From an uncultured Bacteroidales bacterium (lineage in GTDB: Bacteria; Bacteroidota; Bacteroidia; Bacteroidales; UBA932): a stretch of DNA of 13,549 nucleotides. Every line of letters begins with the position of its first letter. The first letter of the stretch is position 1. The DNA lies in assembly GCA_946062035.1 (NCBI GenBank), contig CAMGTS010000012.1, positions 1 to 13,549 on the forward strand, in the 5' to 3' direction. The position numbers and the translations under genes were made by a program. Below are positions 2,704-11,512 of this stretch, piece by piece. The notes under the pieces are model-generated. The model had not been told where the DNA came from and did no database searches. It saw nothing but the letters and a program-made list of their open reading frames with translations.

Positions 2704-2833
2704 CCCGAACACCCGAAGCTGCACATGGAGCATCTTCAATTAGAGAAATCACATACAACATTTTAATACATAGGCGTTTTTGTATGAGCTTACGAAAACG
2801 GGAGTCATACGACAGCCTGATATCAGAAGAAAA

Positions 2834-3100
2834 ATGACAAAGAACGTTTTATACAAGACACAGGGTACCTGCTCTCAATTCATTGAAATAGAAGCGGATG
2901 AAAATAAAATTATAACCAAGTTGACCGTATTCGGCGGCTGCAGCGGCAATCTAAAAGGAATCGCCGCACTTGCGGTAGGAATGCGCCTTGACGAGCTTAA
3001 GAACAAGTTCAGAGGCATTACCTGCGGAAGCAAAAGCACAAGCTGCCCGGACCAGATCAGCAGAGCGGCAGAACAACTCGAAAAAGAGTACGACAAATAA
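2834..3100 (+). CDS. TSCPD-domain protein, TIGR03905-like, four conserved cysteines
   Basis: An 88-residue protein that looks like the small stand-alone TSCPD family. It carries four cysteines, C13 (QGTCS), C36 (FGGCSGNLKGI), C64 (GITCGSKS) and C71 (TSCPDQ), which suggest a metal site. The same domain occurs at the C-terminus of some ribonucleotide reductases, but stand-alone members have no established function. I start at the ATG at 2834. The frame can be extended to a TTG at 2780, but the extra 18 residues are not family-like. Only 12 nt separate its stop from umuD, so it probably forms the first gene of an operon with umuDC. No consensus promoter is evident between 2704 and 2833. A nucleic-acid or nucleotide role is inference from the neighbours. 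Confidence 0.85.
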   Translation: MTKNVLYKTQGTCSQFIEIEADENKIITKLTVFGGCSGNLKGIAALAVGMRLDELKNKFRGITCGSKSTSCPDQISRAAEQLEKEYDK

Positions 3101-3112
3101 CGTTATCGTATA

Positions 3113-3535
3113 ATGGAAATTCACGGTGCCGACCAGACCCAATCCGGAACACAGGTAAAAAAGGGATTTTCCGCTCAGGCGCATGATTACATGGAAAGAG
3201 GTATAGACCTCAACAGGGAACTCATACATAATCCCGCCTCCACTTTTTTCGGAAGAGTGAGCGGAGACGCCATGTCAGGCGCAGGGTTGGAAGAAGATGA
3301 TATAGTGGTGATTGACAAGTCTTTACAAGCAAAAGACGGAGACATTGCCGTATGCTATATTGACGGAGAATTCACTCTGAGGAGAGTCAGCGTCGATGGG
3401 GAATTTCTCTGGCTTACCGCAGATAATCCCAAATACAGAAAAATCAAAGTAGACAAAAGCGAGGAATTTCCTATTTGGGGAGTCGTAACCTATTCAATCA
3501 AGGACATCCGCAGAAAAAATGGAGGAAAAGCCTGA
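3113..3535 (+). CDS. umuD: UmuD homologue (S24 peptidase fold) lacking the catalytic dyad
   Basis: UmuD is the accessory subunit of DNA polymerase V; normally RecA filament triggers it to cut itself after about 24 residues, giving active UmuD'. This 140-residue protein aligns with E. coli UmuD without gaps: GFSAQAHDYMERGIDLNRELI matches GFPSPAADYVEQRIDLNQLLI, and DGDIAVCYIDGEFTLRRV matches the strand carrying the catalytic lysine. At the key positions it differs. The nucleophile serine of SGDSM is A53 (SGDAM, codon GCC at 3269-3271). The lysine is R90 (codon AGG at 3380-3382). The cleaved Cys-Gly or Ala-Gly bond is K17-G18. Self-cleavage should therefore be impossible. The frame cannot be extended upstream because of a stop five codons before the ATG. 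The 3' end overlaps umuC by 17 nt, implying translational coupling. The fold and operon are intact, so it reads as a functional non-cleaving partner, not a pseudogene. Confidence 0.92.
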   Translation: MEIHGADQTQSGTQVKKGFSAQAHDYMERGIDLNRELIHNPASTFFGRVSGDAMSGAGLEEDDIVVIDKSLQAKDGDIAVCYIDGEFTLRRVSVDGEFLWLTADNPKYRKIKVDKSEEFPIWGVVTYSIKDIRRKNGGKA

Positions 3536-4859
3536 TATTGTCCATGCCGGCCATTTTTTCGGTGTGATGGACTGCAACAATTTTTTCGTCTCATGCGAGA
3601 GAGTGTTTAACCCTTCATTAGAGGGGAAGCCTGTTGTAGTACTTTCCAACAACGACGGCTGTGCCGTAAGCAGAAGCAACGAAGCTAAAAAAATCGGAAT
3701 AGCGATGGGTACTCCGGCATTTAAAATCGAACAGGAGTACATCTCCCGTGGAATCAATATAGAGATGTGCTCTTCCAACTACACCCTCTATTCCGATATG
3801 AGCAGAAGGGTTTTCTCTGTATTGCAAAGCCTGATTCAAGGAGCTCAGCCCTATTCCATAGATGAATCCTTCATAGACTTCAAAGGGATGGAGAAGAAGG
3901 ACATCGACAAAAAGGGGCGGGAAATCGCATACAAGGTCAGAAAGTTTACCGGGATACCCGTTTCGGTCGGAGTAGCCCACTCCCTTACCCTCGCAAAGGC
4001 CGCCACAAAATTCGCCAAGAAGTACAAAGGCTATAGAGGCTACTGCATGATCGACACCGATGAGCAGCGTGTCAAAGCCCTAAAACTCATGGATATAGGC
4101 GATGTGTGGGGTATTGGAAGAAGAAGTTCCAAGAGACTTTTGTCAGAAGGGATTCTCTCAGCATACGATTTTACAAAGATTTCACCCTATGAGGTAAAAA
4201 AGAAGATGGGGATAAACGGTCTGCGAACCCATATCGAGCTTTTGGGAAAGCCCGCTGTTGAAATCGACAGGCATGCTGATAAACAAAGCATTACGACAAG
4301 CAGAAGTTTCGGGGACATGGTAAGCGACAAGGAACAAATGAGCATAGCCGTTTCTAATTTCGCCGCATCGTGTGCAGAAAAACTCAGGGAGCAGCACTCT
4401 GCCGCACGGTTTGTCACAGTCTATATCACGACCAACTATTTTCGGCAAGATCTGCCCCAATATGACAATGCCGCCATTATTGAGTTTCCAGAAGCCACAA
4501 ATTCAACTGTCGATATCGTAAAAGAGAGCGTCAAAGCTTTGGAGGAAATTTTCAAAGGAGGCTACAAATACAAAAAAGCCGGTGTCATATTGAGTGGCAT
4601 TATTCCGGAAAGCCATATCCAACAGAACATCTTCGTAGAGAGCAACTACGAAAAAATGAAGAACATAAGCAACCTGTTAGACGAAGTAAACCGTAAATAC
4701 GGGCGCAACAAATTGCATCTTGCGATTCAAGGCAAATCAGCCGTTTACAACCACCATTCCGAAGAACCGCGGGAAGAGAAATGGGAGATGAAAAGAGAGC
4801 ATCTTTCCGGAAACTATACGACATCCCTGCGGGACATTATAACAATCAAGGCTCACTGA
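3519..4859 (+). CDS. umuC: Y-family DNA polymerase UmuC (polymerase V catalytic subunit)
   Basis: Error-prone translesion polymerase that copies damaged templates with UmuD. The 446 residues cover the whole family length. Landmarks: the first metal-binding Asp D18 in GVMDCNNFFVSCERVF; KPVVVLSNNDGCAVSRS; SSNYTLYSDMSRRV; the second acidic pair D115-E116 in YSIDESFIDF; SVGVAHSLTLAKAATKFAKK; the helix-hairpin region DVWGIGRRSSKRL; the little-finger region from about residue 250 (SRSFGDMVSD); and the UmuC-type C-terminus ending WEMKREHLSGNYTTSLRDI. The ATG at 3519 is chosen because the alternative Met17 would remove the first beta-strand that leads to D18. It overlaps umuD by 17 nt. Convergent with the M3 peptidase gene, with only 23 nt between stops and no clear terminator. 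All catalytic residues are present, unlike in its UmuD partner. Confidence 0.96.
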   Translation: MEEKPDIVHAGHFFGVMDCNNFFVSCERVFNPSLEGKPVVVLSNNDGCAVSRSNEAKKIGIAMGTPAFKIEQEYISRGINIEMCSSNYTLYSDMSRRVFSVLQSLIQGAQPYSIDESFIDFKGMEKKDIDKKGREIAYKVRKFTGIPVSVGVAHSLTLAKAATKFAKKYKGYRGYCMIDTDEQRVKALKLMDIGDVWGIGRRSSKRLLSEGILSAYDFTKISPYEVKKKMGINGLRTHIELLGKPAVEIDRHADKQSITTSRSFGDMVSDKEQMSIAVSNFAASCAEKLREQHSAARFVTVYITTNYFRQDLPQYDNAAIIEFPEATNSTVDIVKESVKALEEIFKGGYKYKKAGVILSGIIPESHIQQNIFVESNYEKMKNISNLLDEVNRKYGRNKLHLAIQGKSAVYNHHSEEPREEKWEMKREHLSGNYTTSLRDIITIKAH

Positions 4860-10432: not shown

Positions 10433-11512
10433 TTACAACGAGCACTCTAATACACTGTGGCCGAAAGCCAAGCCGTCGTAAATGTTGTCAATGTGATAGC
10501 CGGCCTTTTCCAAGACGCTGATCATATCCTCACTATGATACATCTTGCTGTTGCCGTTCGCCATGGCTGTAAAGTAGACAGAAGTCATTGTCAGACAATA
10601 GCTTGCCGCCTCATATTTCTGCCTGTCCCAGAAAGTCTCCATGATATAGAGATGTCCTCCTTTATTCAAGGCCCGCTTAGCGTTGCTGACTATATGTAAT
10701 ATCTCTTCCTCGCTGAAGCAGTCCAGGAACTGGCTCATCCATACGACATCGAATCCCTCTGGAAAAGCTTTGTCTCCCAATACATTATTCGGGAAAAGTG
10801 ATATTCTTTCCGCCCCCTCGGCCCCTGCAATGTTCTTTTTAAGCATCTCTAACTGTTGGGGAAGATCCATCACAAAAACATTCAAATCAGAAGACCTTCT
10901 GACGCACTGCAAGGCGAAACGCCCGGTGTTTCCGCCGACATCCAAGAGCCTTGCGGGATTGTTTCTCATAATAATATCGAGAGCCTCTTCAAAAGAACTG
11001 TCGCTATAGAAATGATCGAAATTAAACCAGCTCTCCTGCACACCTTTCGGAAGGGAAGAGAGCCCTTCATAAATCGTGGGCCACTCTCCGAAGACCTTAA
11101 GACCTGCCGGTTTACCCTCGACAAGAGCCTTTTCCAAATTGAACAGTCCCAAGTAGTTGACATCATTCGAAAAATCCATGTTAACCCTTGTCATCTTATC
11201 TTTCAAAAGATAGAATCCCGTCTTGGTGATTTTAATGATATCATTGTTGACCATAACCGTCCCTATTGAAAGACTTGCCTCAACAAGAACCTTTACAGCA
11301 TAACGTGACAGAGATGTCTGCCCTACAATCTGATCCAAAGTAAGCCCCTTAGGATTATCCGCCAAAGCATCCAACACTCCGAGCTTTATCATCATTCTGC
11401 TTACTTGAAAAACAAAAGGGGCGAACGCTATCTCCTGCGCCGCACGCTGTGCTTTCAAAATTGAACGTCTGTCTCTTCCGTACTGTTCCTTGAGTGGTGA
11501 ATCTAATTTCAT
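10433..11512 (-). CDS. SAM-dependent O-methyltransferase, family 2 (PF00891-like)
   Basis: A 359-residue enzyme with the two-part architecture of small-molecule O-methyltransferases. A helical, winged-helix dimerisation domain (about 25-105, GVLDALADNPKGLTLDQIVGQTSLSRYAVKVLVEAS) is followed by a Rossmann domain. The SAM motif is LLDVGGNTGRF (D191-G197 core), with the acidic MDLPQQ (D216) at the end of strand 2 and GFDVVWMSQFLDCFSEEE plus KGGHLYIMET further on. The phylum's homologues are often part of aryl-polyene/dialkylresorcinol pigment clusters, but no such genes are in this window, so the substrate is unknown. It starts 31 nt downstream of the tRNA operon terminator hairpin and has no good promoter of its own; it may depend on read-through. 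Converges on cysS. Confidence 0.85.
   Translation of the reverse strand: MKLDSPLKEQYGRDRRSILKAQRAAQEIAFAPFVFQVSRMMIKLGVLDALADNPKGLTLDQIVGQTSLSRYAVKVLVEASLSIGTVMVNNDIIKITKTGFYLLKDKMTRVNMDFSNDVNYLGLFNLEKALVEGKPAGLKVFGEWPTIYEGLSSLPKGVQESWFNFDHFYSDSSFEEALDIIMRNNPARLLDVGGNTGRFALQCVRRSSDLNVFVMDLPQQLEMLKKNIAGAEGAERISLFPNNVLGDKAFPEGFDVVWMSQFLDCFSEEEILHIVSNAKRALNKGGHLYIMETFWDRQKYEAASYCLTMTSVYFTAMANGNSKMYHSEDMISVLEKAGYHIDNIYDGLAFGHSVLECSL

Follow-up and report, generated by a model that had tools for sequence, protein, structure and literature searches.

A UmuD homologue without its self-cleavage residues in an uncultured Bacteroidales bacterium, and recurrence of the same changes in other bacterial lineages

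The window, that is, the whole stretch of 13,549 nucleotides analysed here, belongs to a 1.33-Mb draft genome (G000; 74% complete, 208 contigs) whose family name we take to be UBA932 and whose genus we infer to be Candidatus Egerieousia. It carries a umuDC gene pair in which umuC overlaps umuD by 17 nt (Table 1). The ATG at 3113 is the sole ATG, GTG or TTG within the first 30 codons of the umuD stop-to-stop frame, a span that extends just short of the next in-frame ATG at 3191. The TSCPD-domain gene ahead of the pair is possibly co-transcribed with umuD; a tblastn search of 13 genome loci around umuDC (L043-L055) gave no match to it. Further along the window, an O-methyltransferase-like gene with a Dimerisation2-like domain lies at 10433-11512 on the reverse strand.

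Table 1. Features at the umuDC locus of the window
Feature	Position	Strand	Remarks
umuD homologue, proteolytic dyad and cleavage bond lost	3113..3535	+	140 aa
N-terminal arm, 17 aa, MEIHGADQTQSGTQVKK	3113..3163	+	alignment, AlphaFold2
Lys17-Gly18 at the Cys24-Gly25 cleavage bond position (Ala-Gly in most relatives)	3161..3166	+	
Ala53 codon GCC at the nucleophile Ser60 position	3269..3271	+	alignment, codon comparison
Arg90 codon AGG at the general base Lys97 position	3380..3382	+	alignment, codon comparison
umuC, Y-family polymerase, catalytic D/D/E intact, DUF4113 C-terminal domain	3519..4859	+	446 aa
TSCPD-domain gene, 3' end 12 nt ahead of umuD	2780..3100	+	

The window protein scores as a member of the UmuD family (NCBIfam NF007621, 135.7 bits, cut-off 110) and as an S24 peptidase (Pfam, 86 bits, cut-off 23.3), and its AlphaFold2 model, which is confident over approximately residues 41-130, has E. 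coli UmuD' (1ay9) as its best Foldseek match, with a TM-score of 0.87 by target length. S24 is the sole Pfam domain and is preceded by the 17-residue arm only, without the added N-terminal DNA-binding domain of UmuDAb-type repressors. The umuC gene directly 3' encodes an intact polymerase site; its product scores 355.5 bits with the NCBIfam UmuC model NF002955, which is under the cut-off of 431 and yet its best NCBIfam match. A sequence-only reading of the locus had placed Ala53, Arg90 and Lys17-Gly18 at E. coli Ser60, Lys97 and the Cys24-Gly25 bond, and had called the UmuC active site intact. Both statements were confirmed, as phmmer aligned residues 15-133 to E. coli UmuD with one single-residue gap, located 3' of all three sites, and the catalytic Asp, Asp and Glu of UmuC are present. 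Self-cleaving S24 peptidases of the LexA/UmuD type have a Ser nucleophile, a Lys general base and an Ala/Cys-Gly bond, and the window protein carries other residues at all three. The corresponding Ser, Lys and P1 codons are TCA, AAG and GCG in its closest active relative (G025) and GCC, AGG and AAG in the window, where the P1 codon (3161-3163) differs at two nucleotides. Replacement of Ser60 by Ala prevents UmuD self-cleavage (PMC3901139, available excerpt), and self-cleavage of the window protein is not expected; the earlier description of a proteolytically dead, fixed subunit thus holds as a prediction from sequence. The current NCBIfam model labels the window protein an "autoproteolytic subunit", its score being over the cut-off, and does the same for four of five other dead forms tried, a label that is misleading for such forms.

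Within the genus, a UmuD match was found in 32 of 39 genomes, and the 33 copies read at the nucleophile and general base positions comprised 29 active (Ser/Lys) and four dead (Ala/Arg) ones, the latter from the window and from G002, G034 and G038 (hereafter the trio). In the sample of the wider family, 194 of 299 genomes had a match, and the copies read were those of the genus plus 10 others. The nearest relatives of the window are active, which leaves the window as the sole genome found to represent its own loss event. On a UmuC tree of 44 rows, seven of them dead, which excluded L032, L054 and two Chitinophagaceae rows, the dead label needs four changes, all forced by supported branches, and a single ancestral loss common to the window and the trio was rejected (AU p 0.00096); these are separate losses. 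In the trio the umuD stop-to-stop frame is only 121-128 aa long, and its sole ATG, GTG or TTG 5' of the core aligns at the N-terminal Gly of UmuD', in a short stretch where the alignment is not certain and where the 168-copy alignment described below places a gap. With its only start codon at the old cut site, the trio gene seems to encode UmuD' directly, with no arm.

We used a DNA motif in which the nucleophile codon is set to GNN, so that Ser cannot match, and any residue is allowed at the Lys position. Among 56 loci it matched the four dead Egerieousia genes and no other gene. Run over a collection of 84,980 genomes, it returned 27 loci, of which 10 encode unrelated proteins and were dropped, leaving 17 UmuD homologues from Bacteroidales, Chitinophagaceae, Fibrobacter and Fibrobacterales, Arthrobacter, Neptuniibacter (two copies from one genome), candidate division WWE3, Synechococcaceae and Pantoea. 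All 17 carry Ala, and 16 also carry Arg, the single exception with Lys being from Pantoea sp. IMH; because the Lys position had been left free, the joint Ala/Arg state is not due to chance. The balance of states differs among lineages: among the 13 UmuD from 38 genomes of the Arthrobacter sp. Leaf234 genus, nine species have Ala/Arg with a Ser-Gly site and the other four Ser/Lys with an Ala-Gly site; in its family, presumably Micrococcaceae (197 genomes, 48 copies read), we counted 28 Ser/Lys, 16 Ser/Arg, three Ala/Arg and one Gly/Arg; and in Chitinophagaceae, where 92 of 147 genomes had a match and 49 copies were read, 44 Ala/Arg, one Ser/Arg and four Ser/Lys, with the second batch of loci from both families hand-picked from lists. 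One Chitinophagaceae genome (G299) holds two dead types, L112 with Met directly before the old cleavage Gly and no arm, and L129 with a conserved arm. A less biased check came from 395 genomes drawn evenly from the class, which we take to be Bacteroidia, some of them recurring from the Chitinophagaceae set: 81 had a match, the window's own included, and the best 69 of the 91 non-window matches were 62 Ser/Lys, six Ala/Arg and one Cys/Arg, so that outside certain lineages only a minority of copies are dead. A phage origin of the dead form was considered and rejected, since viral contigs gave no match to the dead motif and the viral homologues readable at both positions all have Ser and Lys (L284 ends before the Lys, and the last four viral-contig rows may be other S24 proteins); a scan with P0001 gave only two viral relatives. 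The plasmid and phage relatives listed are outside the residue counts.

Altogether, 168 copies were read by alignment, a non-random set found via the dead-motif scan and its relatives (L192 and L193 repeat L142 and L144 and were counted once): 77 are Ser/Lys, 72 Ala/Arg, 17 Ser/Arg, one Ala/Lys and one Gly/Arg. An Ala/Cys-Gly bond stands at the cut site in 73 of the 77 Ser/Lys copies compared with six of the 90 Arg copies. On a FastTree tree of 151 rows, built with the trait columns omitted and without the 17 copies that lack a same-strand downstream umuC (13 Ala/Arg, three Ser/Lys, one Ser/Arg), state changes numbered 11 for Lys, 12 for Ser and 11 for P1. Independent pairs on this tree linked Lys with P1 (nine pairs, of which a mean of 7.1 changed in the same direction and none in opposite directions; median p 0.0156) and Ser with Lys (11 pairs, of which a mean of 6.7 changed in the same direction and none in opposite directions; median p 0.0156), and the association of Ser with P1 was not significant (median p 0.125). 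The sequence-only reading had argued for a lineage trait over random error and had looked to co-variation of the three positions in relatives; the first point is borne out by the joint recurrence of the same changes, and the second by a clear co-variation, spread however over several separate branches and not over one Bacteroidales branch. Ser/Arg copies are far commoner than the single Ala/Lys copy, which suggests that Lys to Arg tends to precede Ser to Ala. In the Arthrobacter family, Ser is kept with Arg in place of Lys at L205-207, L209, L215, L221 and ten more loci, and 14 of these 16 loci have a changed cut site; such Ser/Arg proteins are possibly intermediates.

The polymerase partner has usually been retained. 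Of the 77 UmuC partners of dyad-lost UmuD, 75 have the whole catalytic D/D/E and the other two have a gap at one or more positions; among partners of the remaining copies, 73 of 74 have it whole. Loss of the dyad has occurred several separate times across bacterial groups, with the polymerase usually kept. Within the stretch around the gene, a same-strand downstream umuC is missing for 13 of 72 Ala/Arg copies versus three of 77 Ser/Lys copies, nine of the 13 being from Chitinophagaceae, and a recheck of the copies without it found umuC only at L189, on the opposite strand. Some dead UmuD proteins may hence serve something else, or their UmuC may be encoded elsewhere. Ala/Arg umuD genes with no umuC nearby include L165, L166, L170, L171, L176, L226, L232 and L236 (Chitinophagaceae) and L123 and L126 (Synechococcaceae). 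In the Neptuniibacter genome (L113, L114, L115), no umuC was found around the two short dead umuD genes, and a Ser/Lys umuDC pair lies elsewhere.

Control by transcription, which had been proposed in place of proteolysis, was addressed by searching near gene starts for the published SOS box CTAA-N5-TTAG with at most one mismatch. The proposal fits the Chitinophagaceae, where the box is found at 40 of 44 Ala/Arg umuD genes versus 8.9 expected from shuffles, and no such box is seen 5' of umuD in the window. The Egerieousia genes (three of 32, 5.1 expected) and the same-family set were not above expectation for this box, no group had clearly more GGA-N5-TCC boxes than expected, and a promoter scan around umuD gave nothing clearly over shuffles. 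A survey states that both Bacteroidetes SOS regulator groups are absent from Bacteroidales (PMC8565304, in the portion available). Given their SOS box, the Chitinophagaceae appear to have kept transcriptional control and dropped the proteolytic step, and the window lineage shows neither.

The reading we prefer, with a probability of roughly 0.6, is that the window protein is a UmuD without self-cleavage that would assist DNA polymerase V permanently, in the role of a UmuD'-like accessory subunit; among the options first offered, the UmuD'-like one is probably the better supported. Loss of cleavage is read directly from the residues, and from there we infer UmuD'-like behaviour as a further step. 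Lacking a nucleophile, the protein would have no RecA-triggered switch; its short polar arm would no longer dock on the globular domain, and the dimer would always be UmuD'-like and bind UmuC for lesion bypass, making polymerase V assembly-competent whenever expressed and leaving the level of expression and the activation of the UmuD'2C complex by RecA as the means of control. The same end might be reached by other routes, with no arm encoded in the trio and a conserved, uncut arm kept in Chitinophagaceae. A presumably undocked arm is essential to the UmuD'-like reading, because the full-length E. coli S60A protein is anti-mutagenic and not UmuD'-like (PMC3901139, available excerpt). The window arm is without the hydrophobic stretch of active relatives (LPLADGG in G025, LPYADGG in L268, LPLF in gammaproteobacterial-type copies), and in E. 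coli UmuD the residues T14, L17 and F18 have a role in arm docking, their joint replacement by Ala weakening arm contacts to give a UmuD' mimic (PMC5342242, in part). AlphaFold2 pLDDT is below 50 for window residues 1-14, and the arm of the active control L268 scores low too (blocks 51-71). RecA was found in all six genomes checked (G000, in two pieces, G002, G034, G038, G025 and G012).

The main rival is that the uncut, full-length state acts as a fixed brake, restraining UmuC and competing at the replication clamp as a permanently non-mutagenic manager of damage tolerance. E. coli UmuD S60A behaves in this way (PMC3901139 and PMC5342242, excerpts), and the arms of the Chitinophagaceae Ala/Arg copies are conserved as this rival would have them. 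In ungapped comparisons of non-independent pairs, identity over the 15 residues preceding P1 is 61% in these copies at 60-65% core identity, compared in the same bin with 22% in Micrococcaceae Ser/Lys, 9% in Micrococcaceae Ser/Arg, 18% in Egerieousia Ser/Lys and 17% in same-family Ser/Lys copies; at a core identity of 0.7-0.8, arm pN/pS is 0.31, compared with 0.79 for Micrococcaceae Ser/Lys, 0.90 for Micrococcaceae Ser/Arg and 0.72 for Egerieousia Ser/Lys copies. Above 0.8 the gap narrows (arm identity 72-73% versus 51-71%, pN/pS 0.24 versus 0.36-0.71), and the Arthrobacter Ala/Arg arms (62-67%; pN/pS 0.44) do not differ from active ones. The putatively uncut arm of the Chitinophagaceae form is conserved like its core, and not every dead UmuD would be a bare UmuD'; as no active sister of this clade is in the sample, the constraint on the arm could predate the loss. 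A full-length state is nevertheless impossible for the armless trio and L112, the window arm is missing the hydrophobic stretch, and the UmuC catalytic residues are retained. For the window, we therefore consider a fixed brake unlikely and favour the permanent UmuD'-like subunit.

Decay, in which the window gene would be an early pseudogene that still looks intact, finds some encouragement in the tempo of change. The window UmuD core evolves faster than three of six sisters (unique changes versus G025, 19 to 5, chi2 8.2; in UmuC, 43 to 26, chi2 4.2), which allows for some relaxation, and one genome only represents this loss event. The frame is nonetheless open, the fold confident and UmuC intact, dN/dS versus G025 is 0.095, though with dS saturated, and elsewhere the same changes have arisen again and persist in many species. 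Among hand-picked pairs, dN/dS was 0.02-0.2 in 10 of 17 dead-dead pairs, 0.34, 0.51 and 0.69 in three and saturated in four, compared with 0-0.13 in 11 active pairs; dead copies in separate lineages are mostly under purifying selection. Covariation, the UmuC residues and dN/dS in relatives led us to reject decay as the main account, and for the window it is quite improbable.

Removal of the arm in trans, by a second UmuD or a general protease, is very improbable. In E. coli, a partner whose active site is intact cuts UmuD S60A in trans (PMC5342242, excerpt), and the Neptuniibacter and Pantoea genomes hold a second, Ser/Lys UmuD; the window bond, however, is Lys-Gly, a search of the 74% complete G000 found no second UmuD or other S24 protein except a weak match in a 501-aa frame, and none was found in the trio genomes (81-92% complete). 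A sequencing or assembly error, for which the 208-contig draft might speak, is hardly credible, given that the nearest active relative differs at three functional codons (P1 by two nucleotides) and in the arm, and that Ala/Arg also occurs in unrelated assemblies, some of whose records carry no MAG label (Arthrobacter sp. Leaf234, A. agilis 4041).

As a putative permanent UmuD'-like subunit, the window protein can be set beside several known systems. It resembles E. coli UmuD/UmuD' in sequence family, fold, umuDC gene pair and UmuC partner, and differs in having Ser60, Lys97 and the Cys24-Gly25 bond replaced. Phage P1 HumD is a UmuD'-like, gene-encoded form and in this respect resembles the Egerieousia trio; the window protein scores only 72.5 bits with the NCBIfam HumD model (cut-off 120) and keeps an arm. 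Non-cleavable UmuD mutants are classic tools. Comparable too are the engineered E. coli UmuD 3A (T14A L17A F18A) and UmuD 18 (arm shortened), whose uncut, weakly bound arm makes them full or partial UmuD' mimics (PMC5342242, excerpt); these are laboratory constructs, and the active site of UmuD 18 works unless S60A is added, whereas the window protein is naturally without both active site and hydrophobic arm residues. In a model of polymerase V, the N-terminal arm of UmuD' lies within the cleft of UmuC, and the arms of YqjX/YolD, small subunits of Gram-positive Y-family polymerases, are likewise modelled in their polymerase (PMC12926913, in part), which offers a possible role for permanent or gene-encoded arms. 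The YqjX/YolD arm is thus a possible working analogy for the Chitinophagaceae form, although YqjX/YolD are described as an evolutionarily distinct family (PMC6511836, excerpt), and the window protein has no YolD-like Pfam match at E 0.001. A natural, non-cleaving S24-fold protein that has no canonical active site is already known in phage 186 CI (PMC12984324, available part), a phage repressor, whereas the window UmuD is a polymerase subunit homologue. Searches of open-licence PMC turned up no report that UmuD self-cleavage has been lost repeatedly in nature, and the excerpts cited here make no mention of a naturally lost UmuD dyad.

A wider proposition, to which we give about even weight, is that separate lineages have repeatedly converted UmuD, a switch that cuts itself, into a fixed subunit by stereotyped changes (Lys to Arg, loss of the cut site, Ser to Ala), after which the arm would be deleted, undocked or made a permanent conserved part working in UmuC like the YolD arm, so that polymerase V there would operate without a proteolytic checkpoint. 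The Ala/Arg copies without a neighbouring umuC weaken this proposition. RecA-driven UmuD self-cleavage is the textbook delay that holds the mutagenic polymerase off until damage persists, and lineages without self-cleavage but with UmuC would be natural experiments on the purpose of that delay, in which one could test whether polymerase V is controlled by transcription and RecA binding alone, and whether mutation is higher or not.

Two further variants were seen among the copies read. In the UmuD at L360 (G1002), Cys replaces the nucleophile Ser and Arg replaces Lys, with the Ala-Gly site and the arm kept. In Egerieousia, the UmuD proteins at L051 (4968-5312), L052 and L053 (from G022, G018 and G016, respectively) keep Ser and Lys with Thr-Gly at the cut site, and in all three Phe replaces the Met after the Ser and about 20 residues are absent after the Lys strand.
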